Shown here: piece after piece, positions 14,709 to 61,336 of the stretch
Numbering within the stretch: the stretch's first letter is position 1
Layout: every line of letters begins with the position of its first letter
From: Billgrantia tianxiuensis
GTDB lineage: Bacteria > Pseudomonadota > Gammaproteobacteria > Pseudomonadales > Halomonadaceae
Length of the DNA stretch: 64,000 nucleotides
Assembly: GCF_009834345.1 (NCBI RefSeq)
Contig: NZ_CP035042.1
Span: 3,224,001 to 3,288,000 of the forward strand
Direction of reading: 5' to 3'
Notes under the pieces: model-generated
The model's input: only the letters and a program-made list of their open reading frames with translations
Database searches by the model: none
Told to the model about the DNA's origin: nothing
Made by a program: the position numbers and the translations under genes

Positions 14709-15828
14709 ATGAACCAACCACTTATTGATTCTCACACTGTTAGGTCCTCCCCCGAGCCCGGGGATTCGCCATGCCGGCAGAGTTCGCCCCCACGACGCCT
14801 GCTGGATGCTGTGGCCCCAGCGGCCCGATACCTGGCGCTTCGGAGCCAAGCCGGCCCAGCAGGCCTTCGTCGAGGTCGCTACCGCCATCTCTGAAAGCGA
14901 GACGGTCTACGTCGGCGTCAACGACGACCAATACGAGAATGCCCTCCATCAGCTGCCCGCCCACGTGCGGGTGGTGGAACTCTCCAGCAACGATGCCTGG
15001 ATGCGCGACGTGGGGCCCACCTTCCTGACCCACCCGGACGGACGCCTAGCCATGGTGGACTGGGAGTTCAACGCCTGGGGCGGTCTCAAGGGTGGGCTCT
15101 ACTTCCCCTGGGACAAGGACAAGCGCATCCGCACCAAGATCGCCGAGATGCTCGGCATCGAGCGCTTCAAGGCTCCCGTGGTGCTGGAGGGCGGCGCTAT
15201 CCATGTCGATGGCGAGGGCACGCTGCTGACCACCGAAGAGTGCCTGCTCAACCCCAACCGCAACCCCGGCCTGAATCGCACCGAGATGGAGCGGGTGCTG
15301 CACGAGACCCTGGGTGTCGACAAGATCATCTGGCTACCGCGGGGCTGCTACCTGGACGAAACCGACGGCCACGTCGACAACCTCTGCTGCTTCGTCACCC
15401 CCGGCGAGGTGGTGCTGAGCTGGTGCGATGACGAGACCGATCCCCAGCACGCCATCTGCCGGGAGGCCCTACAAGTGCTGGAATCGTCGACTGATGCCAA
15501 GGGCCGCAAGCTGCTTGTGCACAAGCTGCCCCAACCGGGTCCGCTGTTCATCGAGGAGGACGAGGCCAGCGGCATCGACCGGCTGAGCAGCTCCCATCCG
15601 CGGCGCCCCGGCGACCGCATGGCCGGTTCCTACGTCAACTTCTATATCGGCAACTCGGTGGTGGTGATGCCGCTACTGGACCCGACCCGGGACGAGCAGG
15701 CTCGCGATATTCTTCAAGGATTGTTTCCCGACAGGCGGATTGTGGGCGTGCCGGCCCGGGAGATCCTGCTCGGTGGCGGCAACATCCACTGCATCACCCA
15801 GCAACAGCCCAAGCGCCGGTTGCCGTGA
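14709..15828 (+). CDS. aguA: Agmatine deiminase (two 1-base losses near the 5' end)
   Basis: Hydrolyses agmatine to N-carbamoylputrescine and ammonia. Most of the family is intact: WMLWPQRPDTWR, SNDAWMRDVGPTF, VLEGGAIHVDGEGT, DETDGHVDN and the C-terminal nucleophile Cys in LLGGGNIHC. The N-terminal part is spread over three frames. Adding one C to the C5 run near 14749-14753 and one to the C5 run near 14786-14790 restores MNQPLIDSHTVRSSP, then RARGFAMPAEFAPHDACW. The restored gene is 374 codons including stop, the normal AguA length. As deposited, an open frame starts only at 14725 with a scrambled N-terminus. It follows nhaC closely (9 bases) in one operon. Confidence 0.88.
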
Positions 15829-15853
15829 GCGACAGGCAAGCTGCAGCAACAAC

Positions 15854-15886
15854 ACGGGCCGACCGCACAGCGCGCGGTCGGCCCGT
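15854..15886. terminator. Bidirectional hairpin between convergent aguA and puuC2
   Basis: A perfect 13-base inverted repeat (15854-15866 with 15874-15886) surrounds a 7-base loop in the 77-base gap between convergent genes. No clear T-run follows on either strand. Confidence 0.55.
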
Positions 15887-15905
15887 CGTTCGGTTCCGCG
15901 TGTCG

Positions 15906-17408
15906 CTATAGTGTCAGCGACATCCACACGCTCTTGAGTTCGGAATACTCCTCCAGGCTGTGGTGCGACTTGTCGCGCCCGTTGCCCGACTGCTTGACCC
16001 CGCCGAAGGGCATGGTCTGGTCGCCCCCGGCCCAGTTGTTGACGAACACCTGGCCCGACTGCAGCCGCCGCGTCACGCGCAGGATGCGGTCGATGTCCTG
16101 GCTCCACAGCCCCGCCGCCAGGCCGTAGGGCGTGTCGTTGGCCATGGCCACCGCCTCCTCTTCCGTGTCGAAGCCGAACACCGCCAGCACCGGACCGAAG
16201 ATCTCCTCGCGGCCGATGGTCATCTGCGGCGTGACGCCGTCGAACACCGTGGGCGGGATGAACAGCCCCGGCCCCTCCAGTGCCTGGCCGCCGCTGCGCA
16301 GCCGCGCGCCCTCTTCCACGCCCTGGCGGATGTAGTCGAGGATGCGTCGATGCTGAACCTCGTCGACGATGGCGCCCATGAAGCTGTCCGGGTCCAGCGG
16401 ATCGCCCGGCTGCATGTTCTCGGCGGCCTTGAGTACCCGCTCGACGAAGTCGTCGCGAATCGTGTTCTCCACCAGCAGCCGGGAGCCGGCGATGCACACT
16501 TCACCCTGGTTGTGGAAGATCGCCGCGGCGGCGTGGCTGGCTACCCGGTCAAGGTCCTTGCAGTCGGCGAAGACGAGGTTGGGCGACTTGCCGCCGCACT
16601 CCAGGTAGACCCGCTTGAGGTTGGACTGCCCGGCGTACTGCATCAGCTGCTTGCCCACCGCGGTGGAGCCGGTAAAGGCCAGGCAGTCGACCTCGTGGGA
16701 GAGCGCCAGGGCCTTGCCCACGGTGTGGCCGAAGCCCGGCAGCACCTGGAACACGCCCTTGGGCAGGCCGGCTTCCTTGGCCAGTTGGGCCAGACGCAGC
16801 GCGGAGAGCGGCGACTTCTCCGAGGGTTTTAGAATCACGCTGTTGCCGGCGGCCAGCGCCGGGGCGATCTTCCAGGCGGTCATCATCAGCGGGAAGTTCC
16901 ACGGCACGATGGCCGCCACCACGCCGATGGGCTCGCGCAGCACCAGCGCCAGGGTCTCCTCGCCGGTGGGCGCCACTTCGCCGTAGAGCTTGTCGATGCA
17001 CTCGGCCTGGTAGCGAATGCAGCCGATGGCGCCGGCCATGTCGCCCAGCGAGCTCGAGATGGGCTTGCCCATGTCGAGGGTGTCGAGCAGCGCCAGCTCG
17101 TGCTTGTGGGCCTCCATCAGGTCGGCCAGGCGCAGCAGGGTCTTCTTGCGCTTGCCCGGCGCCAGGCGCGCCCACTCGCCGCCGGCGAAGGCCTGGCGCG
17201 CCGCCGCCACGGCGCGCGCGGCGTCGGGTTCGTCACAGCTCGCCACCTGGGCGAGAACCTCGCCGGTGGCCGGGTTGCGCGACTCGAAGGTGTCGCCGCT
17301 CTCGGCAGCGACGAAGGTGTCGTCGATAAAGGCCCGCGACTCGAAAGAAAGCTCGGCAGCCCTGGCCTGCCAATCGGCCAGGGTGCGGGGGGATGGCGTA
17401 CGGCTCAC
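15906..17408 (-). CDS. puuC: Gamma-glutamyl-gamma-aminobutyraldehyde dehydrogenase, copy 2
   Basis: A 500-residue aldehyde dehydrogenase almost identical to the copy at 8820-10319. The catalytic Glu (LECGGKSPN) and Cys (GEVCIAGSR) are present. Compared with copy 1 it differs at GEWA/S, AEN/S, DPD/Q and MSLT/S plus a divergent first 30 residues. The start is GTG at 17408, overlapping the aminotransferase stop by four bases (GTGA), with GAGGAG about nine bases upstream. It is the last gene of a leftward operon puuD-aminotransferase-puuC, which supports a role in the gamma-glutamyl or aminobutyraldehyde oxidation step of putrescine catabolism. Confidence 0.92.
   Translation of the reverse strand: MSRTPSPRTLADWQARAAELSFESRAFIDDTFVAAESGDTFESRNPATGEVLAQVASCDEPDAARAVAAARQAFAGGEWARLAPGKRKKTLLRLADLMEAHKHELALLDTLDMGKPISSSLGDMAGAIGCIRYQAECIDKLYGEVAPTGEETLALVLREPIGVVAAIVPWNFPLMMTAWKIAPALAAGNSVILKPSEKSPLSALRLAQLAKEAGLPKGVFQVLPGFGHTVGKALALSHEVDCLAFTGSTAVGKQLMQYAGQSNLKRVYLECGGKSPNLVFADCKDLDRVASHAAAAIFHNQGEVCIAGSRLLVENTIRDDFVERVLKAAENMQPGDPLDPDSFMGAIVDEVQHRRILDYIRQGVEEGARLRSGGQALEGPGLFIPPTVFDGVTPQMTIGREEIFGPVLAVFGFDTEEEAVAMANDTPYGLAAGLWSQDIDRILRVTRRLQSGQVFVNNWAGGDQTMPFGGVKQSGNGRDKSHHSLEEYSELKSVWMSLTL
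15920..17340. repeat. Long direct repeat, copy B (within puuC2)
   Basis: Partner of 8834-10254, in the same orientation at an offset of 7,086 bases. Recombination between the copies would delete or duplicate a segment carrying the carbamoylase, aminotransferase, antiporter and aguA genes. Confidence 0.85.
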
Positions 17409-18862
17409 GATCGGGACTCCTCTATTGATGGCTGGATCATGATAGCTGGACCATCCGCCTGTTCGCGTGCGGCCAGTCGCCTTGCAGTCTCGTCCAGCGC
17501 CTCCCAGGCCAGGCGGACCAGCTCATCGATCTCGGCGCGGGTAATGACCAGCGGCGGCGAAATGATCATCGTATCACCCACCGAGCGCATCACCAGGCCA
17601 TGATCGAAGCAGATGTCGCGACACAGGGTGCCGACGCCAAAGCCCTTGGGGAACCGCGCTTTGTCGAAGCGCTCGCCGGTGTCGGGGTCGATCAGCTCCA
17701 GTGCCCCGATCAACCCCAGCGAGCGCACCTCGCCCACCAGGGAGTGATCGGCCAGGGTGGCCCAGCGCTCGGCGAGATAGGGTCCCACGTCGTCACGCAC
17801 CCGCTCGACGATGCCCTCGGCCTGCATCAGCTCGAGATTCTTCAGCGCCACGGCAGCGCACACCGGATGCCCCGAATAGGTGAAACCGTGGAAGAACTCG
17901 CCGCCGCGCTCGATCAGGGTCTCGGCGACTCGGTCGCCCACCAGCACGCCGCCGATCGGCAGGTAGCCGGACGAGAGCCCCTTGGCGATGGGCATCAGAT
18001 CGGGTTTCAAATCGTAGTGGACGCTGCCGAACCACTCCCCCAGCCGGCCGAAGCCGCAGATCACTTCGTCCACTACCAGCAGGATGTCGTACCTGGCCAG
18101 CACCTCCTTGACGGCCGGCCAGTAACTCTCCGGCGGAATGATGGCGCCACCCGCGCCCTGCACCGGCTCGGCGATGAAGGCGGCGACGTTCTCCTCGCCG
18201 AGTTCCAGAATCTTCGCCTCCAGGGCTGCGGCGCACTCGCGGCCGAACGCTTCCGGGCTGATATCGCACCCTTCTCCAACCCGCCCTTCTGCAAACTTTC
18301 CCTCACCAAACCAATAGGGCTGCCGCACATGGGCGATCTTGGGCACCGTCGGGCCGCCCTGGGCATGCATCGGCGCCATGCCGCCAAGGCTCATGCCAGC
18401 CACGGTGGAACCGTGATAGGCGTTCTCGCGGGCGATCACCCACTGTTTGTCGGGCTTGCCTTCGAGCGCCCAGTAGCGACGTACCATGCGCAGCACGGTG
18501 TCGTTGGCCTCGGAGCCCGAGCCGGTGAAAAACACCCGGTTCATGTGCGCCGGCGCCAGTCGGCACAGCATCTCGGCCAGCTTCACCGCCGGCGGATGGG
18601 TACTCTTGAAGAAGTTGTTGTAGTAAGGCAGTTCTCGCAGCTGCGCGGTGGCCGCCTCGACCAGCTCCTCGCGGCCGTAGCCCAGATTGACGCACCACAG
18701 CCCGGCCATGGCGTCGAGGATGCGGTTGCCCTCGCTGTCATGGATGTAGACGCCCTCGGCGTGGATGACGATACGGCTACCCTCATCGCCCAGCGCCTTG
18801 AAGTCGGTGAAGGGGTGCAGGTGGTGCTCCCGATCCAACTGGCGGTAGGTCTCGGTATGCAT
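17405..18862 (-). CDS. spuC: Putrescine/polyamine--pyruvate aminotransferase (SpuC-like, class III)
   Basis: PLP aminotransferase of 485 residues resembling SpuC, which transfers an amino group from putrescine or other polyamines to pyruvate. Motifs are the N-terminal HHLHPFTDFKAL, FFTGSGSEANDTVLRMV for the phosphate site, LLVVDEVICGFGRLGEWFG and the PLP lysine in PIAKGLSSGYLPIGG. Near residue 185 the sequence reads WFGEGKFAEGRVGEGCDISPE. Relatives usually run directly from GEG to the acidic segment, so about ten residues with a repeated GEG appear inserted. It lies 11 bases after puuD and overlaps puuC2. The first product, 4-aminobutanal, would be oxidised by the adjacent dehydrogenase. Confidence 0.85.
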   Translation of the reverse strand: MHTETYRQLDREHHLHPFTDFKALGDEGSRIVIHAEGVYIHDSEGNRILDAMAGLWCVNLGYGREELVEAATAQLRELPYYNNFFKSTHPPAVKLAEMLCRLAPAHMNRVFFTGSGSEANDTVLRMVRRYWALEGKPDKQWVIARENAYHGSTVAGMSLGGMAPMHAQGGPTVPKIAHVRQPYWFGEGKFAEGRVGEGCDISPEAFGRECAAALEAKILELGEENVAAFIAEPVQGAGGAIIPPESYWPAVKEVLARYDILLVVDEVICGFGRLGEWFGSVHYDLKPDLMPIAKGLSSGYLPIGGVLVGDRVAETLIERGGEFFHGFTYSGHPVCAAVALKNLELMQAEGIVERVRDDVGPYLAERWATLADHSLVGEVRSLGLIGALELIDPDTGERFDKARFPKGFGVGTLCRDICFDHGLVMRSVGDTMIISPPLVITRAEIDELVRLAWEALDETARRLAAREQADGPAIMIQPSIEESRS

Positions 18863-18873
18863 GGCTCCCCCGA

Positions 18874-19635
18874 TCAGCTCGTCAAGGCCAGTGAGCGCTC
18901 GTCACTGTGCTCGCGGCAGGCGCTGGCAAACCCTTCGAACAGCGCGTGGTAGAGCGGGTGCTCCTGTGTACGCCATTCGGGGTGCCACTGCACAGCCAGG
19001 GCGAAAGCCGAGGCTGCGGCCACCGATATCGCTTCGATCAGCCCGTCCGGCGCCACCGCCTCCACCTTCAGCCCGTCACCCAAGCGATCGATACCCTGCT
19101 GGTGCAGTGAATTGACCCTCGTTTGCGGTTCGGCATACAGCGTCGCCAGGCGGCCACCGGCGCGAATCTCGACGTCATGCGCGGGGGCATAGCGGGTCGC
19201 GTAGTCGGCCTCGGGCTCGCGGTGGTCGGAGAGTCCAGGCACATTCTGCACCGCCTGGTGCAGCGTGCCACCGTAGGCCACGTTGAGCTCCTGAAAGCCG
19301 CGACAGATCCCCAGCAGCGGCAGGCCGCGCCGAATGGAGGCGGGTATCCAGGCCAAGGCGGCGGCGTCACGATGCGGATCGTCGCGGGTGTTTTCCGGTG
19401 CCCGCTCAGCGCCATAACGCGCAGGCTCGACGTTGGAGTAGCTGCCGGTCAGCAACAGACCGTCCAGATGAGCAAGCAGATCGCCGTCCACGGCGTCCTG
19501 CCAAACCGGCAGCACCACCGGCGCCAGGCCATAGGTACGCAGCGCACTCAAGTACTTGTCGGTTACCACATGGGCGGGGTGCCCCTCCACCTCACGGCGA
19601 CAGGCAATGACGCCCACCAGGGGTCGGCTCGGCAT
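18874..19635 (-). CDS. puuD: Gamma-glutamyl-gamma-aminobutyrate hydrolase
   Basis: Class-I glutamine-amidotransferase-like hydrolase that releases GABA and glutamate from gamma-glutamyl-GABA, the last step of the Puu pathway. With the start at 19635 the product has 253 residues, the length of E. coli PuuD (254). The nucleophile is Cys111 (LLGICRGFQELN) and the His/Glu pair is His218 and Glu220 (AVQWHPEW). GAGGAGG lies just before this ATG. A longer frame starting at 19728 would add 31 unsupported residues. It is the first gene of puuD-spuC-puuC2, divergent from puuA1. Confidence 0.93.
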   Translation of the reverse strand: MPSRPLVGVIACRREVEGHPAHVVTDKYLSALRTYGLAPVVLPVWQDAVDGDLLAHLDGLLLTGSYSNVEPARYGAERAPENTRDDPHRDAAALAWIPASIRRGLPLLGICRGFQELNVAYGGTLHQAVQNVPGLSDHREPEADYATRYAPAHDVEIRAGGRLATLYAEPQTRVNSLHQQGIDRLGDGLKVEAVAPDGLIEAISVAAASAFALAVQWHPEWRTQEHPLYHALFEGFASACREHSDERSLALTS

Positions 19636-19666
19636 GGCGGCCTCCTCGAAAATCAGATTGGCGCAA

Positions 19667-19692
19667 ATAGTGTTGATTAAACTTTCCACTAT
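19667..19692. promoter_or_regulatory. Inverted repeat in the puuD-puuA divergent region
   Basis: ATAGTG (19667-19672) and CACTAT (19687-19692) form an inverted repeat around 14 AT-rich bases, 32 bases upstream of the puuD start. It is a candidate operator for the divergent puu genes. The binding protein is unknown; the PuuR-like protein is the obvious candidate. Confidence 0.35.
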
Positions 19693-19800
19693 CGAGGCAA
19701 AAAAATCCAGCCCGCCCCTGCCCGACACTCAACCAAGCAATGAAAGACAGGACTCGTCTCGAACCAAGCAAGAGATTTTCCCCGGCCAAACGTAAAGGAT

Positions 19801-19830
19801 TTGACAACACTGACTCATCATCGAAAGATA
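19801..19830 (+). promoter_or_regulatory. Possible sigma-70 promoter for puuA1
   Basis: TTGACA at 19801-19806 is a consensus -35. AAGATA at 19825-19830 is a weak -10 at 18-base spacing. The puuA1 ATG follows 39 bases later. Confidence 0.4.
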
Positions 19831-19868
19831 GACGTCAATAACGACCCAGCGACACTCACAGGTGCCCC

Positions 19869-21245
19869 ATGCCGCCGCTCAGCGCCGATCAGGCCCGGGA
19901 ATTTCTCGCGCGCCACCCTGACATCGACAGCATCGACCTACTGATCAGCGATCTCAACGGTGTCATGCGTGGCAAACGCATCCCGCGAGACAACCTGGAC
20001 AAGGTCTGCCGGCAGGGCGTCAACCTTCCGGCATCGGTCTTCGCCCTGGATATCAATGGCCACACCATCGAAGCCACCGGGCTGGGACTCGCCATCGGCG
20101 ACAGCGACCGGGTCTGCCGGCCCGTGGCGGGCTCCCTGATGCCGACGCCGTGGCTGCGCAATGGCCGCCAGGGGCAACTGCTGATGACCATGGTCGAGCC
20201 CGACGAGACCCCCTTTTTCGCCGACCCGCGCCAGGTACTGTCACGCCAGCTGGAACGACTGCACAAGCGCGGCCTGACGCCCGTTGTCGCCGTGGAGATG
20301 GAATTCTATCTGCTGGATCGCGAGCGCACCGGGGACGGACTGATACAACCGCCGCGCTCGCCCCGCAGCGGCGAGCGTGCCAGCCAGAGCCAGCTCTACT
20401 CCATCGGCGAACTCGACGAATATGCCGACTTTCTCGAAGACGTGCAGCGGGCGGCCGAGTGCCAGGGCCTGCCGCTCGATACGGCGCTCAAGGAGTGCGC
20501 GCCGGGTCAGTTCGAGATCACCCTCGGCCACTGCGACGATGCGCTCAGGGCGTGCGACAGCGCCGTCCTGCTGAAGCGCCTGATCAAGGGCGTAGCGCTC
20601 AATCACGGCTTCGAGGCCACGTTCATGGCCAAGCCCTATGGCCTCGAGGCCGGCAACGGCACCCATGTGCACCTCAGCATGCTCGACGCCAGCGGCCGCA
20701 ACGTGTTCGCCGCTCCCGACGGCGATCCGCTCGGCAGCGCCACCCTGCATCAGGCCGTTGCCGGGATGCTGGCGCTGATGCCGGCGTCGATGGCGATCTG
20801 TGCCCCCAACCTAAACTCCTTCCGCCGCTTCCAGCCAGGTCTCTACGTGCCCATGACGCCCACCTGGGGCTTCGACAACCGCTCGGTGGCACTGCGTATT
20901 CCTTCGGGCAGCAACGACGCACGCCGTATCGAGCATCGTGTTGCCGGTGCCGACGTCAACCCCTACCTGCTGCTCGCCGTGCTGCTGGCCAGCATCGAGC
21001 ACGGCATTGCGGAACGGCTGACGCCGCCCGCCCCTGTCACCGGCAACGCCTACGAGCAGTTCGAGCCCTCCTTGACCAACAGCTGGCATCGAGCCCTCGA
21101 CCTGCTGGAAGCCAGCGAGCCGTTGCAGAATGCCCTGGGCCGCGATTTCGTCCACGTTTTCGTTGCCAATCGGCGCGCCGAGCGCGACCTGGCCATGCAG
21201 ACGGTGAGCCAGTTGGAGTATGCCTGGTATCTCAGGCACGTGTAG
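19869..21245 (+). CDS. puuA: Gamma-glutamylputrescine synthetase (glutamine synthetase family), copy 1
   Basis: ATP-dependent ligase joining glutamate to putrescine, the first step of the Puu pathway. The 458 residues have the length of the GS-like PuuA group. The N-terminal beta-grasp segment reads DLLISDLNGVMRGKRIPRDN. Catalytic-domain motifs include VAVEMEFYLLD, KECAPGQFEITLGH, EAGNGTHVHLSM and APNLNSFRRFQPG. It is divergent from puuD with a 233-base regulatory gap and converges with the LysR gene at a 7-base distance. A second, only distantly similar paralogue lies at 32151-33496. Activity on other amines is possible. Confidence 0.88.
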   Translation: MPPLSADQAREFLARHPDIDSIDLLISDLNGVMRGKRIPRDNLDKVCRQGVNLPASVFALDINGHTIEATGLGLAIGDSDRVCRPVAGSLMPTPWLRNGRQGQLLMTMVEPDETPFFADPRQVLSRQLERLHKRGLTPVVAVEMEFYLLDRERTGDGLIQPPRSPRSGERASQSQLYSIGELDEYADFLEDVQRAAECQGLPLDTALKECAPGQFEITLGHCDDALRACDSAVLLKRLIKGVALNHGFEATFMAKPYGLEAGNGTHVHLSMLDASGRNVFAAPDGDPLGSATLHQAVAGMLALMPASMAICAPNLNSFRRFQPGLYVPMTPTWGFDNRSVALRIPSGSNDARRIEHRVAGADVNPYLLLAVLLASIEHGIAERLTPPAPVTGNAYEQFEPSLTNSWHRALDLLEASEPLQNALGRDFVHVFVANRRAERDLAMQTVSQLEYAWYLRHV

Positions 21246-21252
21246 TGGCGAC

Positions 21253-32150: not shown

Positions 32151-33496
32151 TCAGACGCTCAACAGCAGGAACTCCCTCTCCCACGAACTGATGACCTTCT
32201 TGAAGTTCTCGTTCTCCACCCGCTTGACCGCGACGTAGCCAGTCACGAACCGATGCCCCATGTAACGCTCCAGCTCGCTGCAGTTCTCCATTCGCTCGAG
32301 CGCCTGCTCAAGGGTAAACGGCAGGCGCAGGTTGCGCCGCTCGAAGGCGCGACCCTGCACCGGTGCAGAGGGGTTGAGCTTCTGCACCATGCCCAGGTAA
32401 CCGCACAGCAGGCTCGCCGCAATGGCCAGGTAGGCGTTGGCATCGGCACCGGGCAGGCGGTTTTCGATGCGCCGGTTCTGCGGCGAGGAGTCGGGTACCC
32501 GTAGACCGCAGGTGCGGTTCTCCTCGCCCCACTCGACATTGACCGGTGCCGAGGTGTCGGGCAGGAACCGGCGGAAGGAATTGACGTTTGGCGCCATCAG
32601 CGGCAGCGCTTCGGGAATGAAGCGCTGCATGCCGCCGATATGATGGAGGAACAGTTGGCTCATGGAGCCATCCTCGTTGGCGAACACACTCTTCCCGGTG
32701 GCGACGTCCAGCACGCTCTGGTGAATGTGCATGGCACTGCCGGGCTCGTTGGTGATCGGCTTGGCCATGAAGGTCGCTACCACATCGTGCTTCAGCGCCG
32801 CCTCGCGCAGGGTGCGCTTGAACAGGAAGACCTGGTCGGCCAGCATCAAGGGTCGCCGTGACGGAAGTTGATCTCCATCTGGGCGGTGCCCTCTTCATGG
32901 ATCAGGGTGTCGATATCCAGGCCCTGGATCTCGCACCAGTCATACATGTCCTCGAACAGCGGGTCGAACTCGTTGGCCGCATCGATGGAGAACGACTGCC
33001 GGCCGGTCTCCTGGCGGCCGCTGCGGCCGATAGGCGGCAGCAGAGGCAGATCGGGATCCTCGCAGCGCTTGGTCAGGTAGAACTCCATTTCCGGTGCCAC
33101 CACCGGCTTCCAGCCCTGCTCGGCATAGAGTGCCAGCACGCGCTTGAGCTGGTTGCGGCAGGAGAGTTCGATGGGGTTGCCCATCTTGTCATAGCAGTCG
33201 TGGATGACCTGTGCGGTGGGCTCGATGGCCCAGGGCACCGGATACACCGCCGAGATATCGGGCCGGCACAGCATGTCGATGTCGGCGGGATCGAGCAGCG
33301 AGTAGTAGAGTTCATCCTCGACATAGTCGCCGGTCACGGTCTGCAGCAGTACGCTTTCGGGGAGACGCATGCCCTTCTCGGCCATGAACTTCGACACCGG
33401 GGTGATCTTGCCGCGGGCGATGCCGGTGATATCGCTGACCAGGCACTCCACCTCGGTGATGCGTCGCTCCTTCAGCCAGCTTTCCAGGTCTTTCAT
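32151..33496 (-). CDS. puuA: Gamma-glutamylputrescine synthetase-like glutamine synthetase, copy 2 (frameshifted)
   Basis: GS-family ligase likely to glutamylate putrescine or another polyamine. The N-terminal half (33496 to about 32850) has CLVSDITGIARGKITPVSKF, VVAPEMEFYLTKR and EEGTAQMEINFRHGDP. The C-terminal half continues in another frame with LMLADQVFLFKRTL, EPGSAMHIHQSV and PNVNSFRRFLPD. One missing base in the GGG run at 32850-32852 (CCC on the coding strand; CCCC expected) explains the break. Restoration gives 448 residues. The ATG at 33496 has GAGG upstream. It lies between puuB2 and potF in a leftward cluster. It differs clearly from puuA1, so substrates may differ. Confidence 0.87.
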
Positions 33497-33534
33497 GGGA
33501 ACCTCATTGCGGCCCGTCCCGGGCGTCACGTTCG

Positions 33535-35148: not shown

Positions 35149-35901
35149 CTACCCGGCGCAGACAGGACAGCCAGGATCGCGCGGCACCTGGTAGTGGCGC
35201 CACTGACCGGAAAGCCCGTCGAAGGTGGATAGACCACGATGAGGAATGCCGGCCCCGCTGAGCAACTTGACCGCCTCCAGCGCCTGGAAACAGCCGATCA
35301 GCCCGACCAGGGGCGCCACCACGCCGTTCTCGGCGCAGCGCAGCTCTTCGTCGCCGCCCTCCCCTGGAGGATAGAGGCAGGCATAGCAGGGCGAGGCGGT
35401 ATCGCGGGGATCGAATACCGCCAGCTGCCCTGAAAAGCGAATCGCCGCCCCTGAAACCAGCGGCACACCGGCACGATGGCAGGCAGCGTTGATGGCATAG
35501 CGGCTAGAGAAGCGATCGGTGCAGTCGAGCACCAAATCGACCTCCCCCACGGCCGCATCGAGCGCGGCCTCATCGAGATGCGCCTCGATCACGCGAATCT
35601 CGCAGCCCGGGTTGAGCGCCATGGCCGCGTCGCGCGCCGACTGCGCCTTGTTACGTCCCAGGTCGGTCATGCCATGCGCGATCTGGCGCTGCAGGTTGGA
35701 AAGCTCCACCGCATCGGCATCGGCCAGGGTCAGGCGACCCACTCCGGCGGCGGCCAGATAGAGCGCCACCGGCGAGCCCAGCCCTCCGGCGCCCACCACC
35801 AGCACCCGCGAGGCCAGCAGGCGCTCCTGCCCCTCGATATCGATCGCCTCCAGCATGATCTGCCGGCTGTAGCGCAACAGCGCCTCGTCGTTCATCGCCA
35901 T
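35149..35901 (-). CDS. moeB: Molybdopterin-synthase adenylyltransferase / ThiF-family protein
   Basis: E1-like adenylyltransferase of 250 residues that activates the C-terminus of MoaD (molybdopterin synthase) or a related sulfur carrier. The nucleotide loop is VVGAGGLGSPVALYLAAAGV, followed by DADAVELSNLQRQIAHG and VDLVLDCTDRFSSRYAINAA. Two CxxC pairs (CYACLYP and CPVCAG) form the zinc site, the usual MoeB arrangement. The ATG at 35901 directly follows the lrp stop codon; a second ATG at 35895 fits the family start MNDEALLRYSRQ. It closes the hemA-prfA-prmC-lrp-moeB run. Confidence 0.92.
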   Translation of the reverse strand: MAMNDEALLRYSRQIMLEAIDIEGQERLLASRVLVVGAGGLGSPVALYLAAAGVGRLTLADADAVELSNLQRQIAHGMTDLGRNKAQSARDAAMALNPGCEIRVIEAHLDEAALDAAVGEVDLVLDCTDRFSSRYAINAACHRAGVPLVSGAAIRFSGQLAVFDPRDTASPCYACLYPPGEGGDEELRCAENGVVAPLVGLIGCFQALEAVKLLSGAGIPHRGLSTFDGLSGQWRHYQVPRDPGCPVCAG

Positions 35902-36402
35902 TTACTTGCCTTCGAGCTCCTCGATGTCGGGTACATAGAGCGAGAACTCCTCCTTGACCTCCTCCATCACCACGTAGCTCTTCGACTCCTTGACGCCGGG
36001 AAGGGTCAACACCACGTCGCCGAGCAATTGACGATAGGCGGACATCTCGGGAATCCGGCACTTGAGAATGTAGTCGAACTGCCCCGAAACCAGATGGCAC
36101 TCCTGAATCTGCGGCAGGCGGGAGACGGCGCGGCGGAACTCATCGAAGACCGCCGGCGACTGCGTTTCGAGACTGATCTCGACGAATACCAGCAGATTGG
36201 CCTTGAGCGAGCGCGGATTGAGTATCGCCTTGTAGCCACGGATCACGCCGGACTTCTCGAGACGCTTGACGCGCTCCAGGCAGGGGGTGGTGGAGAGCCC
36301 GACCTGGGCAGCCAGGTCGACATAGGAGATACGCGCATTTTCCTGCAGGCAGCGCAGGATCTTGAGGTCGATACGGTCGAGCGAGCGGGTCTTGGTTTTC
36401 AT
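35902..36402 (-). CDS. lrp: Lrp/AsnC-family transcriptional regulator
   Basis: Leucine-responsive-type regulator of 166 residues. The N-terminal helix-turn-helix spans about 8-60 (LDRIDLKILRCLQENARIS, then STTPCLERVKRLEKSGVI). The C-terminal RAM ligand domain spans about 70-150 (VFVEISLET, ECHLVSGQFDYILK). Length and motifs fit global Lrp of gammaproteobacteria rather than short AsnC forms. The stop is directly abutted by the moeB ATG. There is no strong ribosome site before its ATG. It lies between prmC and moeB, genes that are adjacent in related genomes. Confidence 0.93.
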   Translation of the reverse strand: MKTKTRSLDRIDLKILRCLQENARISYVDLAAQVGLSTTPCLERVKRLEKSGVIRGYKAILNPRSLKANLLVFVEISLETQSPAVFDEFRRAVSRLPQIQECHLVSGQFDYILKCRIPEMSAYRQLLGDVVLTLPGVKESKSYVVMEEVKEEFSLYVPDIEELEGK

Positions 36403-36581: not shown

Positions 36582-37425
36582 TCAACGCTGATTCGGTCCT
36601 CGGCCGAAAGTGACCCGCTCCTGCCCCCCAGGTCCCGCCGACTCGCGACGTCTCCATACCCCCTCGCCTCGAGCAACTCGCGCACGGCCGCCGCCTGGTC
36701 GTGCCCATGCTCCAGGGCAAGCCAGCCGCCGGGAACGAGATGGTCAACAGCGCTTTCGGCAATATGGCGCAAGTCGGCCAGCCCCGATTCAAGAGCCACC
36801 AGGGCGCTTCTCGGCTCGAAGCGCACGTCACCCTGAGCCAGGTGCGGATCGCGCGCATCGATATAGGGCGGATTGGCTGCGATCAGCGCGAAACGCTGCT
36901 GCGCCACTGCCGAGAACCAGTCGCTGACCAGGAAGCGTGCGTTGGCGATGTCCAGCCGCCGGGCATTCGATTCGGCCAGGGCCACCGCCTCGGGCACCCG
37001 GTCGATGCCGAGAACCTGCCAGCCAGGGCGCTCGCTGGCAAAGGCCAACGCAATCGCCCCGGTACCGGTCCCCAGGTCGAGCAGGCGGCCCGAAGTCTCG
37101 CCCGCCAGACCGAGCAGCACCTCCACCAGGGTTTCGGTATCGGGCCGGGGGATCAGGGTATGCGGCGAAGTGGCCAGGGCAAGTCCCAGAATTCCCGCTC
37201 GCCGGTGAGGTAGGCCACCGGGTGGCCTGCCGCCCGCGCGGCGACGAGAGCCTCGAAGCGGGCGCGCTGGAAGGTGTGCGCCGTCCGGTCACCCCAGGTA
37301 TAGAGCCAGGCGCGTTCGACACCCAGCACATGGCACAGCAGCACCTCGGTATCCAGCCGTGGGCTGGGCGAGCCGGCTCGCGCCAGGCGCTCGGCAGCCC
37401 GCGCCAGCAGCGTATCGAGCTGCAT
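36582..37425 (-). CDS. prmC: Release factor glutamine methyltransferase (two 1-base losses)
   Basis: SAM-dependent enzyme that methylates the GGQ glutamine of release factors RF1 and RF2. N-terminal residues read [18 protein letters not shown], then YLTGEREFWDL. The SAM-binding DLGTGTGAIALAFASERP and catalytic NPPY (LIAANPPYIDAR) lie in a second frame. A missing base in the GGG run at 37177-37179 (CCC on the coding strand) breaks the N-terminal frame. A second loss in the C6 run at 36624-36629 would otherwise extend the protein past its natural end; restored, it ends RRDLGGQERVTFGRG and stops at 36582. The restored length, 281 residues, matches the family (277 in E. coli). The start overlaps the prfA stop by one base. 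Confidence 0.9.
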
Positions 37426-42455: not shown

Positions 42456-43303
42456 ATGAACGCACTCACGCTGCCGGCGCCGGCCAAGCTCAATCGCCTG
42501 CTGCATATCGTCGGCCGCCGAGCGAACGGTTATCACGAGCTGCAGACGCTGTTCCAGTTTCTCGACCATGGCGACGAGCTGCGCTTTCAGTTGCGGCAGG
42601 ATGGCGAGATCCACCTGACGCCCGGCCTGCCGGGCGTGCCCGACAGCGACAACCTGATCGTGCGGGCAGCCCGGCTGTTGCAGGCGGTAAGCGGCTGCCC
42701 CCTGGGCGCCGACATTCAACTGACCAAACGCCTGCCCATGGGCGGCGGCCTTGGCGGCGGCAGCAGCAACGCCGCCACCGCGCTGCTTGGCCTCGACCGC
42801 TTGTGGCGTCTCGACCTCCCGCTCGACCACCTGGCCGAACTCGGCCTGCAGCTCGGGGCCGATGTGCCGGTGTTCGTTCACGGCCAGGCCGCCTGGGCCG
42901 AAGGTGTCGGCGAGAAGCTCACACCGGTGGCACTCGACACCCCCTGGTTCGTGGTCGTGCACCCTGGCATCGAGGTCGCCACCGCCGCCGTGTTCAGGGC
43001 GCCGCAATTGACACGTGACACTGCCCCGATTACCATGGCGCGCGCACTGCAGGGGGAGCGCCCAGCTGGCACAACGACTGCGAACCGACGGTCAGGTCAC
43101 TCTATCCGCCTGTCGCCGAAGCACTCGACTGGCTTGGTAGCCGGGCACCCGCCATGCTGACGGGAACCGGAGCCTGTGTCTTCGCCTGGTTCGATTCAAG
43201 AGCCGAAGCGAAGCGTCTATTGGCCGACCTGCCGGACCGCTATACTGCTTTCACGGCCCGCGGCCTGAACCTCTCCCCGCTACATGCTGCTCTAGGTCGA
43301 TGA
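42456..43303 (+). CDS. ispE: 4-diphosphocytidyl-2-C-methyl-D-erythritol kinase (frameshifted)
   Basis: GHMP kinase of the MEP isoprenoid pathway. It starts [20 protein letters not shown] and has the ATP loop [20 protein letters not shown]. After ITMARALQG the frame is lost at the G5 run 43052-43056, where G6 is expected. In the next frame the product continues [18 protein letters not shown], with the C-terminal motif [13 protein letters not shown], and stops at 43301-43303. Restored, it has 282 residues, as in E. coli (283). The enzyme is essential in bacteria that rely on the MEP route, so a sequencing error is the likely cause. Confidence 0.92.
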
Positions 43304-45193: not shown

Positions 45194-45774
45194 ATGCCCC
45201 AGATCAAGGCGATCATCGGGCTGGGCAATCCCGGTGACGGGTACGCCGCCACACGCCACAACGCCGGCGCCTGGCTGGTGGAAATCCTGGCCCGCCAGGC
45301 CGGCACCGAGCTGCGCCCGGAGAAGAAGTTCCTCGGTCTGTATGCCAAGGTGCTTCTCGACGGCCAGGAACTACATCTACTCGAACCCACTACCTTCATG
45401 AATCGCAGCGGCGCCGCCGTGGCGGCCCTGTGCCAGTTCTACAAGATCGCCCCGGATGAGCTGCTGGTGGCTCACGACGAGCTGGACATCCCCCCGGCAC
45501 GGCCCGCTACAAGCAGGGCGGTGGCCACGGCGGTCACAACGGCCTGCGCGACATCATCAGCGCGCTGGGCGAGAAGGGCTTCAACCGCCTGCGCATCGGC
45601 ATCGGCCACCCCGGCGACTCGCGCCAGGTCACCAACTACGTGCTGGGTCGCCCCGGCAAGGCGGAGTTCGAGGCCATCGGCGGCGCCCTCAACGAGTGCC
45701 TGGCCACGCTGCCGCTGGCCGTGTCGGGCGACTGGGCCAAGGCCATGAGTCGACTGCACAGCTTCTCGGGCTGA
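45194..45774 (+). CDS. pth: Peptidyl-tRNA hydrolase (frameshifted)
   Basis: Releases peptides from peptidyl-tRNAs dropped by the ribosome. The N-terminal half has [19 protein letters not shown], with the catalytic His in TRHNAG, and [11 protein letters not shown]. The frame breaks after HDELDIPP. One G missing from the GG pair at 45496-45497 restores [20 protein letters not shown] and [10 protein letters not shown], with a stop at 45772-45774. The restored 193 residues equal the family length (194 in E. coli). Pth is essential in related bacteria, so a consensus error is likely. GGAG precedes the ATG. Confidence 0.93.
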
Positions 45775-47121: not shown

Positions 47122-48419
47122 TCAAACCAACTGGGGGCGGTTGGCGAAGGCGATCAGCGCCCGGGTCAGATATTCGACATCGTGGCTGCCCGCCGTCTCG
47201 CGAATCGAGTGCATGGCCCACTGTGGCACACCCACATCCAGCGTCGGCACACCGAGTTCGGTGGCAGTGATCGGACCGATGGTGCTGCCGCACCCCATGT
47301 CGGCGCGAGTAACGAAAGTCTGCACCGGCACCCCGGCCTCGCGACAGAGATCGCGAAACAGCGCAGACGTAGCGCTGTTGGTGGCATAGCGCTGGTTGGC
47401 GTTGACCTTGATCACCGGTCCGCCATTGAGCGCCGGCCCATGGGCGGCGTCATGCTTGTCGGTAAAATTGGGGTGAAGAGCGTGAGCGTTGTCGCAGGAG
47501 ATCATTCGCGAGGCCTGGATCAGACGAATGAAGCCCTCTTCGCCTGGTTCGCCGAGCTGCGCGTTCACGCGACGCAAGACGTCGCCGAGGAACGGTCCCT
47601 GGGCACCGCAGGCGCTGGCACTACCGACTTCTTCATGATCGTTGGCCACCAGCACCACGCCCTGGCTGCCGTCGCTCTCCAGCAGCGCTTCCAGGCCGAT
47701 GAAGCAGGAAAGCAGGTTGTCCAGGCGGGCGCTCGCTACCAGCTCGCGCTCGATGCCCACCAGCGCCGGTGGCTGCACATCGTAGAGTGCCAGCTCGAAA
47801 TCGAGGATCTCGGCTCCGGCGATGCCATGCTGCACCTCCAGCCACTCGAGCAGCAGGCGTTGCAGGTCGGCTTTTTCTCCGCCCTGCAGGAAGACCGGCG
47901 GCATCTGGGTCTGGGCATTGATCGCCCGGCCGTTGTTGACCTCGCGATCGAGATGAATGGCAAGACTGGGAATGATGGCGATCGGCCGGTCCACGTACAG
48001 CAGCACGCCTTCGATGCAACCGTCGGCATGTCGCACGTGGACTCGCCCGGCCAGCCCCAGGTCGCGATCGTACCAGGGGGCCAGCAGCACGCCGCCGTAC
48101 AACTCGACGCCGAGCTGCAGCCAGCCCGCCGAATTCTGGGCCGCGTTGGGTTTCAACCTCAGGCCGGGGCTATCGGTATGGGCGCCAATCATGCGCAGTG
48201 ACTCAAGTTCCTGCCGAGGCAGCTGCAGCGCCACGATGGATGAGTCGTTACGCGTGACAAAGACTCGCTCGCCGGGTGAAAGCTGCCATGACTGGCGCTC
48301 GTCGAGGCGACGAAACCCGGCGGCCTCGAGCCGGTCGGCCATTATTGCCACGGCATGCCAGGGCGTAGGGAACGATGCAGAAAATCGAGCAGTCGCTCGA
48401 GACGGGCTTCCCGAGACAT
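47122..48419 (-). CDS. apeB: M18-family aspartyl aminopeptidase (frameshifted near start)
   Basis: Zinc aminopeptidase of the M18 family, removing N-terminal acidic or other residues. Motifs are IGAHTDSPGLRLKP, NDHEEVGSASACGAQGP, SCDNAHALHPNF and the C-terminal MGCGSTIGPI. The natural start at 48419 reads MSREARLERLLDFLHRS. One base is missing in the GGG run at 48368-48370, after which the product continues PTPWHAVAIMADRLE. As deposited, the main frame has an unrelated N-terminus. The restored length is 432 residues, normal for the family. It converges with tRNA-Met and is divergent from prc. Confidence 0.88.
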
Positions 48420-50845: not shown

Positions 50846-54068
<3,223 letters not shown>

Positions 54069-54089
54069 ATGGCGCAATACTTCTGGAAA

Positions 54090-54168
54090 GAGCCGATGGC
54101 TCTCTTTGAAGCCGAGCTGATGGTTCTTTTCGAACTTGAGCTGATGGCTCTTTTCGAACTTGGGCTGA

Positions 54169-54175
<7 letters not shown>
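54090..54175. repeat. 24-base tandem repeat between tRNA-Asn genes
   Basis: Three units of 24 bases start at 54090, 54114 and 54138 (core GAGCTGATGGCTCTTTTCGAA), with a partial fourth at 54162-54175 that runs into the tRNA copy 2 terminus. Units 2 and 3 differ at one base; unit 1 is more diverged. The repeat resembles the tRNA 3' border (TGATGGCTC), so slippage or duplication from the tRNA end is a possible origin. Confidence 0.8.
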
Positions 54176-54244
<69 letters not shown>

Positions 54245-54274
54245 ATGACGAGCGTCAGGATCAGCGTGTGTTCT

Positions 54275-54350
<76 letters not shown>

Positions 54351-54371
54351 ATGGCCCTGAACACGGTGCGT

Positions 54372-54399
54372 AGTATACGGATCGCTCACATAAGGTCAA
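54372..54399 (-). promoter_or_regulatory. Promoter of the tRNA-Asn trio
   Basis: Minus-strand TTGACC (54394-54399) and TATACT (54372-54377) are separated by 16 bases. The first tRNA-Asn starts about 22 bases downstream. Confidence 0.65.
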
Positions 54400-54430
54400 G
54401 GGCGGATTCTGCTGGCCTGGCACTGCCCTC

Positions 54431-54476
54431 AAAACACATGACGCCCGCGCAACGGGAACTGCGCGGGCGTCATGTG
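54431..54476 (-). terminator. Terminator of the second tRNA-Met
   Basis: A perfect 17-base inverted repeat (54435-54451 with 54460-54476) around an 8-base loop, followed by TTTT on the minus strand. It begins eight bases after the end of the minus-strand tRNA-Met. Confidence 0.8.
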
Positions 54477-54483
54477 GAGAATC

Positions 54484-54560
54484 TGGTGGCTACGCCCTGA
54501 TTCGAACAGGGGACCCCATCATTATGAGTGATGTGCTCTAACCGGCTGAGCTACGTAGCC
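54484..54560 (-). tRNA. tRNA-Met(CAT), second copy
   Basis: A 77-base cloverleaf with acceptor GGCTACG/CGTAGCC, anticodon CAT (ATG on the plus strand at 54524-54526) and encoded CCA. It is nearly the same as the gene at 46992-47068, with small changes in the D arm (GCTCAGCCGGTTAGAGC) and T loop. It is of elongator type. Confidence 0.95.
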
Positions 54561-54624: not shown

Positions 54625-54650
54625 GCCGGTAGCTGCTTTGTTTTTATTGA

Positions 54651-54679
54651 TTGAACGTTCAATAAAAAAATGACATACT
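54651..54679 (+). promoter_or_regulatory. BetI operator overlapping the betIBA promoter
   Basis: The 12-base palindrome TTGAACGTTCAA (54651-54662) lies in an AT-rich stretch and resembles the known BetI operator of E. coli. Its left half, TTGAAC, also serves as a -35, with CATACT (54674-54679) as a -10 at 17-base spacing. Binding of BetI would block RNA polymerase directly, and release by choline would open the operon. Confidence 0.75.
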
Positions 54680-54720
54680 GATGAGCCAACGTGGAGTCAT
54701 TGCATTCACAGGAGTCAGCG

Positions 54721-55337
54721 GTGCCAAAGACAGGTATGGAGCCGATCAGGCGTAGCCAGCTCATCAAGGCCACCATGGCTGCCATCGACGAGGTCGGTCT
54801 GGCGGATGCTACCGTACTGAGAATCGCCCGGCATGCCGGCGTATCGGCGGGCATCATCAGTCACTACTTCGGCGGCAAGGACGGCCTGCTCGAGGCCACC
54901 ATGCGCCAGATCCTCACTGACCTGGGCCAGGCCGTAGCGGCCCGGCGCGGTCAGTTGAAAGATGGCTCTCCACGCGACCATCTCGGCGCCATCATCGATG
55001 GCAACTTCGACCGTAGCCAAATCTCCGGCCCAGCAGCCAAGACCTGGCTCGCCTTCTGGGCCAGCAGCATGCACAAGCCGCGGCTCCAGCGGCTCCAGCA
55101 TGTCAACGATCAGCGGCTCTATTCCAACCTGTGCTGCCAGTTTCGCCGCCTGATGCCGCACGCAGCGGCACGCGATGCCGCTCGCGGCCTTGCCGCCATG
55201 ATCGACGGCCTATGGCTGCGTGGCACCCTGAGTCCCGAGGGGCTGGATACCGAGCGCGCCCGACGCTTGGCGCACGCCTATCTCGATCAGTTACTGACCG
55301 GTTACGACACCTCCCTTGCGTCCACAAAGGAGACTGC

Positions 55338-55341
<4 letters not shown>
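54721..55341 (+). CDS. betI: Choline-responsive repressor BetI
   Basis: TetR-family repressor of glycine-betaine synthesis from choline. The start is GTG at 54721, with AGGAG eight bases upstream, giving (V)[17 protein letters not shown] as in BetI proteins. An ATG at 54691 is in frame but has no ribosome site and overlaps the promoter region. The helix-turn-helix is [20 protein letters not shown], followed by [17 protein letters not shown]. The product has 206 residues. The stop overlaps the betB start (ATGA). Confidence 0.93.
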
Positions 55342-56807
<1,466 letters not shown>

Positions 56808-56898
56808 GTATCAGTGAAGAGACCCGTCATTGCCGCTCGCACACACATGGCGTGTCGGCCCAAGTCAAGTGCGGCTGGCTGCAGCGAGGGGCGCCGGG

Positions 56899-56986
56899 GA
56901 CAAGCCGAAGAGGAGGTCCTACGCCATGGATGGCGTAGGTAGCGCCCACAGCGCCTCCTCGCCGGTCCGGCGCTCCGGGGCTTGTC
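56899..56986. repeat. Nested palindromic element between betB and betA
   Basis: Three concentric inverted repeats: GACAAGCC (56899-56906) with GGCTTGTC (56979-56986); GAGGAGG (56910-56916) with CCTCCTC (56954-56960); and CCTACGCCAT (56918-56927) with ATGGCGTAGG (56930-56939). The innermost is a 10-base stem with a 2-base loop. The whole element could fold into a branched hairpin of about 88 bases. It resembles an intergenic BIME/REP-like repeat unit and may stabilise betIB mRNA relative to betA. No second copy was seen in this window. Confidence 0.6.
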
Positions 56987-57050
56987 GACGGATCAGCCCC
57001 GAGCGACCCCGTTAAAGGCCCGCCCCGTCGCGTTATCAGTGAGAGATGTC

Positions 57051-58741
57051 ATGTCCCAGATTCGTGAATTCGACTACGTCATCATCGGCGCCGGCTCGGC
57101 CGGCAACGTATTGGCCACCCGCCTCACCGAGGACCCGGCGGTCAGCGTGCTGCTGCTCGAGGCCGGCGGCCCCGACTACCGCTTCGACTTCCGCACCCAG
57201 ATGCCCGCCGCCCTGGCCTTCCCGCTGCAGGGCAAGCGCTACAACTGGGCCTTCGAGACCGACCCGGAGCCGCACATGAACGGCCGCCGCATGGAGTGCG
57301 GCCGCGGCAAGGGGCTCGGCGGTTCGTCGCTGATCAACGGCATGTGCTACATCCGCGGCAATGCCCTGGACTACGACAACTGGGCCAGCATGGCGGGGCT
57401 CGAGGACTGGCGCTACGCTGATTGCCTGCCCTACTTCAGGAAGGCCGAGTGCCGCGACATCGGCGCCAACGCCTACCACGGCGGCGACGGGCCGGTGAGC
57501 GTGACCACGCCCAAGGAGGGCAACAACGAGCTCTACCGCGCCTTCGTCGATGCCGGCGTGCAGGCCGGCTACCCCGAAACCGAGGACGTCAACGGCTACC
57601 AGCAGGAGGGCTTCGGCCCCATGGACCGTTTCGTCACGCCCAAGGGGCGTCGCGCCTCCACCGCCCGGGGTTATCTCGACCAGGCCAAGCAGCGCGACAA
57701 CCTCACCATCGAGACCCACGCCACCACCGACGTGATCGAGTTCGAGGGCAAGCGCGCCGTGGGCGTGCGCTACCTGCGTCGCGGCCAGCCCCACCGGGTC
57801 CACGCCCGCCGCGAGGTACTGCTGTGCGCCGGGGCCATCGCCTCGCCGCAGATCCTGCTGCGCTCGGGGGTCGGCAATCCGGAGCACCTGCGCGAGTTCG
57901 ACATTCCCGTGGTTCACGACCTGCCCGGTGTCGGTGAGAACCTGCAGGACCACCTGGAGATGTACATCCAGTACGAGTGCAAGCAGCCGATCACGCTCTA
58001 CCCCGCGCTCAAGTGGTTCAACCAGCCGAAGATCGGCGCGGAATGGCTGTTTCTCGGCAGCGGCATCGGTGCCAGCAACCAGTTCGAGTCGTGCGCCTTC
58101 ATCCGCACCCACGATGAGGAGCCCTGGCCCAACCTGCAGTATCACTTCCTGCCCATCGCCATCAGCTACAACGGCAAGAGCGCGGTGCAGGCGCACGGCT
58201 TCCAGGCCCACGTGGGCTCGATGCGCTCCGAGAGCCGCGGGCGCATTCGCCTCACCTCGCGCGATCCCAAGGCCGCTCCCAGCATCCTGTTCAACTACAT
58301 GGCCAAGGAGAAGGATTGGCAGGAATTCCGCGATGCCATTCGCCTGACCCGCGAGATCATCGCCCAACCCGCCATGGATCCGTATCGCGGCCGCGAGATA
58401 TCGCCAGGGCCGGACGTGCAGAGCGATGAGGAATTGGATGCCTTCGTGCGCGAGCACGCGGAGACTGCCTACCACCCCTGCGGCAGCTGCCGCATGGGAG
58501 AAGGCGACGACGCCGTGGTCGACGGCCAGGGCCGCGTGCACGGCCTGGAGGGCTGCGTGTGGTGGATGCCTCCTTGTTCCCGGTGATCCCCACCGGCAAC
58601 CTCAACGCACCGACCATCATGCTGGCCGAGAAGATCGCCGACCGTATCCGTGGCCGCGAGCCGTTGCCACCCTCGGACGCGCCCTACTACGTGGCCGGTG
58701 ACAGTCCGGCCAGGCGCGAGCCCCAGCGACGCCTAACCTGA
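57051..58741 (+). CDS. betA: Choline dehydrogenase (frameshifted near 3' end)
   Basis: FAD-dependent GMC oxidoreductase that oxidises choline to betaine aldehyde. It starts [20 protein letters not shown], with GMC signatures [20 protein letters not shown] and [16 protein letters not shown] and the C-terminal active-site His region [12 protein letters not shown]. After GLEG one C is missing near 58553-58554. In the next frame it continues [20 protein letters not shown] and [14 protein letters not shown], with the stop at 58739-58741. The restored product has 563 residues, near the family length (556 in E. coli). It is the last gene of betIBA. Confidence 0.93.
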
Positions 58742-58763
58742 GCCTGTTACTCCCTCCCCACCC

Positions 58764-58796
58764 AGCGCCCTGCCACCGAGCAGGGCGCTGTCATTT
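58764..58796 (+). terminator. Terminator after betA
   Basis: AGCGCCCTGC (58764-58773) pairs with GCAGGGCGCT (58780-58789) around a 6-base loop and is followed by GTCATTT. Confidence 0.6.
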
Positions 58797-58892
58797 CGTC
58801 TGTGCCTCAGGGCTGGCCAGCACCGGGGAGATCGGCTAGGCTGACACATTCAAACAACCGTTCTAAACATGAACCAAGGGAGCGCCGAACAC

Positions 58893-61336
58893 ATGCTCAC
58901 CCTGATACTCCTCATCCTCACTGTCGCTGGCCTGCTGGCGTTAATGCGGCGCGAGGCCGGCGCCATGCCGATCCTGGTCATGCTCGGAGGCCTTGGCCTG
59001 GTGAGTCTGCTGGTCTCCCCCGTACTTGGCGTACTGCTGCTGCTCGGCGCGGCGGCAGTCGCCGTGGCTGGCCTGCCGGCGCTGCGCACCCAGTGGCTCA
59101 CGCCGCGCCTGTTCGTCATGTTCAAGCGCGTCTCGCCCAAGGTTTCCGACACGGAGCGTATTGCGCTGGAAGCCGGCACCGTGGCCTGGGATGGCGAGCT
59201 GTTCTCGGGTCGTCCGCAGTGGGACAAGCTGATGAGCTACCGCGACGACGGCCTAAGCGAGGAGGAGCGCAGCTTCCTCGAGCATCAGTGCTCGGTGGCC
59301 GCCGGCATGTGCAATGCCTGGGAGATCGCCAAGGAGCGTGCCGATCTGCCCGAAGAGCTGTGGCAGTACCTGAAGAAGGAGGGCTTCTTCGGCATGATCA
59401 TCCCCAAGGAGTACGGCGGCCTCGGGTTCTCGGCCAAGGCCCAGTCGCTGATACTGCAGAAACTCTCGATCAGCGAGACGCTGATGGTCACGGTGGGAGT
59501 GCCCAACTCCCTGGGCCCGGGCGAGCTGCTGCTCAAGTACGGTACCCAGGCGCAAAAGGATCACTATCTACCGCGCCTGGCCGACGGCCGCGAAATCCCC
59601 TGCTTCGGCCTGACCGGCCCCCGCGCCGGCAGTGACGCCACCTCGCTTCCCGACACCGGTATCGTCTGCAAGCAAGTGATCGACGGTGAAGAGGTGTTGG
59701 GCTTGCGCCTCAACTTCGAGAAGCGCTGGATCACCCTGGCGCCCATCGCCACCGTCATAGGCCTGGCTTTCCGCCTGTTCGACCCCGACCACTTGCTGGG
59801 CGGGGAGGAGGATCGTGGCATCACCCTCGCACTGGTGCCTCGCAATACCGCTGGCATGGAGATCGGCCGCCGCCACCACCCCATCGGCAGCCCGTTCCTC
59901 AACGGCCCGATCAAGGGCAAGGACGTCTTCGTCCCACTGGACACCATCATCGGCGGCACCGAGATGATCGGTCAGGGCTGGCGCATGCTGGTGGAGTGTC
60001 TTTCCATCGGCCGCTGCATCACCCTGCCCTCCGGTGCCAGCGGCACCATGCGCTACGCCCTGGGCTGGACCGGCGGCTTCGCCCGCATTCGCCGCCAGTT
60101 CAACGTACCCGTCGCTGAGATGGAGGGCGTACAGGAGCCGCTGGCACGCCTGGCCTCGCTGGGCTACATCGCCCAGGCGGCGGTCTACCAGACCGCCAAC
60201 ACCATCGACCGCGGTGAGAAGCCTTCCGTACCATCGGCAATCCTCAAGAGCCAGCTCACCGAGTTCCAGCGCCTCGGGCTCTCCGATGCCATGGACATCC
60301 ACGGCGGCAAGGCGGTGACCCTGGGCCCGCGTAACTACCTGGGCATCGGCTACAGTGCTAACCCGGTGTCGATCACGGTCGAGGGTGCCAACATCATGAC
60401 CCGCAACCTGATGATCTTCGGCCAGGGCGCCATCCGCTGCCATCCGTTCGTGCTCGAGGAGCTGGCCGCTTCGGACAGCAACGATCTGCCGGCCTTCGAT
60501 CGTGCCTTCTTCGGCCACGCAGCCCTAGTCTTCAGCAACGCCGCACGCGCCTTCACCATGGGGCTCGGCATCGGCAAGCCGAGCGTGCCCTTCGATGCGG
60601 TCGCCGCGCCCTACGCCCGCGACATGGCGCGTCTCTCGGCCGGCTTCAGCCTGTGTGCCGATGCCGCCATGGCCAGCCTCGGGCCACGCTCAAGCAGCGC
60701 GAGATGATCTCTGCACGCCTGGGCGACGTGCTCTCCAATCTCTACCTTGCTTCGATGGTGCTCAAGCACTGGCAGGAGGGCGACAAGGTGGAAGGCGAGG
60801 CCGCCCTACTCCACTACAGCTGCACCCACCTGCTGCAGCGTGCCGAGCAAGCCTTCGACGAGCTGTTCGACAACCTGCCCAACCGCGCGCTGGCCGGCGT
60901 GCTGCGCGCGGTGACGATGCCGTTGGGACGGCGCTGGAAGCGCCCCGCCGATCACCTGACCCGGCAGATCGCTCAGTCCGTGTCGCGCAACACCGCGCTG
61001 CGCGCCAAGCTCCTCGCGGCAGCCTGGCAGCAGAACGACGGCGTCAAGGACAACCCGCTGGCCCGCTACAACGCCCTGCTGGCCGACTACGACCGCGCCG
61101 AAGCGCTCTACCGCACGGTCAACAAGGCCTACGCCAAGGACGAACTGCCGCGTCAGGCGCTGCATCCCGAGGCGCGGCTGGAGGCAGCGCGGGAGAAGGG
61201 CCTGGTCAGCGAGGAGGACGCCGAGTTCATGCGCCGCTTCGAAGCCGAAGTACTCGAACTGCTCAGCGTGGACGACTTCGAGTACGACGAATTCGCCACC
61301 GACAAGGCCAACATCCTGCGCCACAACGCCGCCTGA
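58893..61336 (+). CDS. fadE: Acyl-CoA dehydrogenase FadE (frameshifted)
   Basis: Inner-membrane-associated acyl-CoA dehydrogenase for the first oxidation step of fatty-acid beta-oxidation. Two N-terminal hydrophobic segments (about 1-60) precede the dehydrogenase fold, with MIIPKEYGGLGFSAKAQSL, ITLPSGASGTMRYALGWTGG and ITVEGANIMTRNLMIFGQGA. The frame breaks at the GGG run 60681-60683 (GGGG expected after MASL). The remainder reads ATLKQREMISARLGDVLSNL. The restored product has 814 residues, identical in length to E. coli FadE. The ATG at 58893 has AGGGAG 11 bases upstream; an in-frame ATG at 58869 would add eight residues. Confidence 0.93.

Follow-up and report, generated by a model that had tools for sequence, protein, structure and literature searches.

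Single-base frame breaks in a Billgrantia tianxiuensis assembly as very probable residual consensus errors

Are eight genes within one 64-kb stretch of the Billgrantia tianxiuensis chromosome truly broken, or has the assembly dropped single bases from intact ones? The initial annotation of this stretch described ten frame breaks in aguA, puuA2, prmC, ispE, pth, apeB, betA and fadE, and proposed that each was the loss of one C or G from a short run. Judged from sequence comparison, we consider it very probable (about 97%) that these breaks are errors left in the consensus of the assembly and not broken genes. They would then represent an ordinary sequencing artefact, because the same dropouts occur in rRNA and ribosomal-protein genes.

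The ten sites in the window

The window, i.e. the whole stretch analysed (G000:C1:3224001-3288000; 64,000 nucleotides), belongs to a genome (G000) of one contig of 5,015,118 bases, and its GC content is 60.0-66.5% in 4-kb bins. By its prfA protein, the genome has Halomonas and Billgrantia species as closest named kin, 80 named loci having been used for this comparison alone. We aligned the window with five relatives of the same genus (G008, G010, G012, G005 and G009; DNA identity 79-86%) using blastn and local MAFFT, and took the deficit at each site as the net length difference of the window against the aligned relatives, modulo 3. The sites, in window positions, are the following:

14747-14751, plus strand: aguA (agmatine deiminase; TIGR03380), first break; -1 and +2 against 2/2 relatives, both -1 modulo 3
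14785-14790, plus strand: aguA, second break; -1 against 2/2 relatives
32849-32852, minus strand: puuA2 (glutamine synthetase family), break between ORFs 32846-33529 and 32151-32849; -1 against 5/5 relatives, tblastn split with five relatives
36624-36632, minus strand: prmC, 3'-terminal break; -1 against 5/5 relatives, tail divergent
37177-37187, minus strand: prmC, main break; tblastn split with G009 and G012, shift -1
43051-43056, plus strand: ispE, break at a G run; -1 against 5/5 relatives, five G in the window and six G in 5/5 relatives
45489-45496, plus strand: pth, break at a C run; -1 against 5/5 relatives
48366-48369, minus strand: apeB (M18 aminopeptidase; NF002759), break near the start; -1 against 4/4 relatives
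58549-58553, plus strand: betA (choline dehydrogenase), break near the C-terminus; -1 against 3/3 relatives
60681-60683, plus strand: fadE (acyl-CoA dehydrogenase), break; -1 against 3/3 relatives

Against the same-genus relatives that align there, the window shows a net difference of -1 modulo 3 at every one of the ten sites, which bears out the one-base deficits first proposed from the window by itself. The case is weaker at 14749, which lies in a divergent N-terminus with only two relatives, and at 36624, where only about ten residues at the end of PrmC are affected and the profile is already matched to position 248 of 253 ahead of the break. For the main prmC break, blastn gives -1 at 37187 in 3/5 relatives and MAFFT gives the relatives one additional base in 5/5 across a 91-base stretch, a placement no finer than 37177-37187, and at several sites the exact lost base and its position could not be fixed. 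The proposed loss from a short G/C run holds fully for ispE, where 5/5 relatives carry a run one base longer, and partially for pth (2/5), betA (1/3) and puuA2 (four G in 2/5 relatives, five G in 1/5). It is not seen at apeB and fadE, where the base that the relatives align with the site is not part of a run.

Protein comparisons follow the same breaks. Family matches back the names aguA, prmC, ispE, pth, apeB (as an M18 aminopeptidase), betA and fadE; the name puuA2 is that of the initial annotation, and both halves match glutamine synthetase families. The raw window frames at aguA hold successive pieces of the relatives' N-terminus, and the apeB frame downstream of its break is open from 48582. 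The relatives' open proteins switch frame at puuA2, prmC (37.18 kb), ispE, pth, betA and fadE in 20 of the 28 tblastn split rows, the other eight having been left out by inspection as antisense or gene-junction matches, and the shift computed from one row for each of these six genes was -1 every time.

The initial annotation had further claimed that all the changes were losses and none gains, and this was sustained: the listed sites comprise ten losses out of ten (sign test, p = 0.002). Across the window, we found 61 consensus length-difference clusters, namely the ten listed sites, 28 intergenic, 15 no more than 90 bases from the end of an ORF and eight deeper. Of the eight deeper clusters, five either vary between relatives or are cancelled by another change within 20 bases (27744, 30640, 61715/61727, and 6210 together with 6227); the other three fall where two genes meet (3783, 35900 and 48473). 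No unanimous, uncancelled gain was found inside a gene of the window, the 15 clusters near ORF ends being counted as a group. At 35899-35903 the window has one base more than 4/5 relatives, just 5' of a start codon common to the next gene; judged by its place in the sequence, this is a junction difference and not a broken gene.

Ribosomal RNA and essential genes

If single bases were dropped without regard to coding, where else should they be missing? The four 23S rRNA copies of this genome differ from one another at five G/C runs and one substitution. The run at alignment column 1479 is short in three of the four copies and that at column 2648 in two, and those at columns 2041 and 2487 are each short in one; the longer form is found in all 15 matched relative rows at columns 1479 and 2041 and in all 12 at columns 2648 and 2487. 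These rows are on-target pattern matches, several of which overlap the same copy, and off-target rows from the loose patterns (runs of two or three) were ignored. At column 2346, where one own copy is short, the pattern matched no relative, and the loss is therefore judged by the other three own copies. This amounts to eight copy-level losses and no gains, seven judged against relatives and one against own copies alone. Because 23S rRNA is not translated, neither ribosomal recoding nor the decay of protein genes can explain these losses. The substitution is A/G, at alignment column 740, with two copies each way.

The same deficits recur in ribosomal-protein genes. We sampled a ribosomal cluster (G000:C1:4368001-4428000), of which ~49 kb could be matched to relatives, and in it rpsC, tuf and rpsL are each broken at a C/G run, being one base short against 5/5 relatives. 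The tuf split refers to the cluster copy. Other split rows in the cluster were left out by inspection, and four control comparisons gave 15 split rows, which we presume to reflect the ends of genes or matches with gaps. Seven consensus indels fall in the cluster, of which four are of uncertain standing (offsets 31359, +1; 56306, -1; 58667, +1; 59414, -1). The last of these, at G000:C1:4427414, is -1 against 3/3 relatives inside an open frame that, we presume, resembles a type III pantothenate kinase.

It could be argued that the frameshifts are real mutations, and that decay or hypermutation in this lineage has turned the genes into true pseudogenes. Indeed, the loss of one base from a G/C run is a recognised type of real mutation, and aguA, puuA2, betA, fadE and apeB - five of the eight genes - might, in principle, be dispensable. 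However, pth, ispE and rpsL each have a single locus in the genome, and each lies there in two frame pieces. Conservation past the lesions is not weaker either: protein identity on the two sides of the break is 96.8/93.6% for puuA2, 97.1/95.7% for pth and 95.0/98.4% for betA, with similar values on both sides in most tblastn rows, and no lesion other than one-base shifts was noticed in the eight split genes in the tblastn splits and alignments. With the 23S rRNA copies affected too, we regard true gene decay as a very unlikely account of the set, and a few of the genome's many breaks could nevertheless be real.

Still less credible is that the short runs are real, with the proteins restored by frameshifting on the ribosome or slippage during transcription. 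Many of the sites do lie in or beside G/C runs, and coding is kept on both sides; against this, bases are also lost from untranslated 23S rRNA, no common motif was seen (as judged by eye), some runs span just two or three bases, and the relatives have the longer form. Least credible of all is a cell in which the short runs are real, and in which a general slippage-based correction of G/C runs makes it possible to live with a great number of broken genes, rpsL included, and with shortened runs in some 23S copies.

Run lengths and extent across the genome

Residual consensus error, the reading that we favour, should leave an excess of lost bases in this genome by comparison with its relatives. 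We used a leave-one-out test on G/C runs of at least three, requiring unanimous relatives and identical flanks, and it gave 4 losses and no gains in 623 informative runs of this genome, compared with 1 loss and 2 gains in 2343 for seven relatives together (losses, Fisher p = 0.008). The four losses are in rpsC, tuf, ispE and one intergenic run (cluster offset 55529), and ispE is thus the sole window site among them; the other nine drop out because the test admits only runs with matching flanks on which the relatives agree. Losses in the pairwise table climb with run length, from 1/1144 at three to 3/44 at five and 2/5 at six against G010. The excess was found in this genome alone. The differences thus bear the marks of an artefact: they keep a constant direction, affect RNA as well as essential genes, are peculiar to this assembly and are concentrated in runs, the last being seen in the pairwise table, with some window sites not seen as run losses.

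Several observations count against an artefact. The four 16S rRNA copies are identical, with no gap against G008 and gaps against G010, G004 and G007 only in variable places, and rpoB is intact, with no split. A/T runs show no loss in the leave-one-out test (0/164, compared with 1 loss and 1 gain in 653 for the relatives), and the pooled pairwise Fisher tests on runs of at least three, which preceded the leave-one-out test, are borderline (p = 0.06, 0.07 and 0.12). While 19 of the 20 frame shifts that we computed, from rows chosen in the window, cluster and flanks, are -1, in keeping with a constant direction, one is +1; it falls in a match of 66-71% identity. To these we add the lack of a run at apeB and fadE, and the position of three of the four leave-one-out losses outside the window.

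Breaks were found at densities of ten in the 64-kb window, five shifts in 29,310 matched bases downstream and three certain cases in ~49 kb of the cluster; splits upstream of the window are putative. Several hundred breaks genome-wide is our guess, and only a guess, since just these stretches were sampled and, outside the window, only scattered stretches are syntenic with G010, with four blocks longer than 1.5 kb across 200 kb. The genome is 95.21% complete despite its single contig. Among the 12 same-genus genomes searched, ten reach 99-100%, and the remaining two, with 79 and 85%, are assemblies of 180 and 260 contigs. The cause named in the initial annotation, homopolymer consensus error, thus finds support in the 23S run losses, the splits in rpsL, tuf and rpsC, the loss excess specific to this genome and a completeness that is low for a single contig.

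How might such an error arise? Probably the read technology or its polishing under-counts G/C runs, in which case single bases would be dropped across the whole chromosome, and the living cell would very probably have intact aguA, puuA2, prmC, ispE, pth, apeB, betA and fadE. By inference, the strain was sequenced on an error-prone long-read platform, and its reads would contain the longer runs. The phenomenon is an already known class of artefact. The Homopolish paper describes uncorrected nanopore errors as mainly homopolymer indels, which shift frames and raise pseudogene counts (PMC8011154), and the Kastor paper reports that false deletions were the majority of indels in its test assembly, typically following runs of four to five bases, with errors commoner after A/T than after G/C runs (PMC12007338). 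The deficits described here would resemble these systematic errors, being one-base homopolymer errors that survive polishing, shift frames and inflate pseudogenes (PMC8011154, PMC12007338); unlike in the Kastor assembly, the losses that we counted lie in G/C runs (PMC12007338). The nanopore-only genome of Halomonas olivaria TYRC17, for which its own paper states uncorrected indels, is that of a different organism, with 55.3% GC and 4,998,083 bases (PMC6498226), compared with 5,015,118 bases and a window GC of 60.0-66.5% here.

Consequences for annotation

Calls of gene absence and of pseudogenes made from this assembly are unreliable. The initial annotation had expected eight pseudogenes to be listed, which proved too many: fragments of aguA, ispE, pth, apeB, betA and fadE each exceed at least one NCBIfam cut-off, and since six of the genes are still recognised in this way by curated families, an annotation would not have to list all eight. 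The two puuA2 halves are below the NCBIfam cut-off, and prmC is borderline, at 180.9 bits for the ORF piece and 219.1 for the open frame around a cut-off of 199.1; the next PrmC match in the genome, presumably the paralogue PrmB, is below it. A check that needs no reads is to compare the lengths of runs between the rRNA copies of one genome, and in its single-copy ribosomal-protein genes; it separates consensus error from real gene loss.

Two further features of the window deserve mention. Two similar minus-strand ORFs, at 8820-10319 and 15906-17408, fall in the same alignment place in G008 and G010 and are for that reason probably paralogues. A minus-strand cluster at 53993-54560 comprises three tRNA-Asn genes and one tRNA-Met gene.
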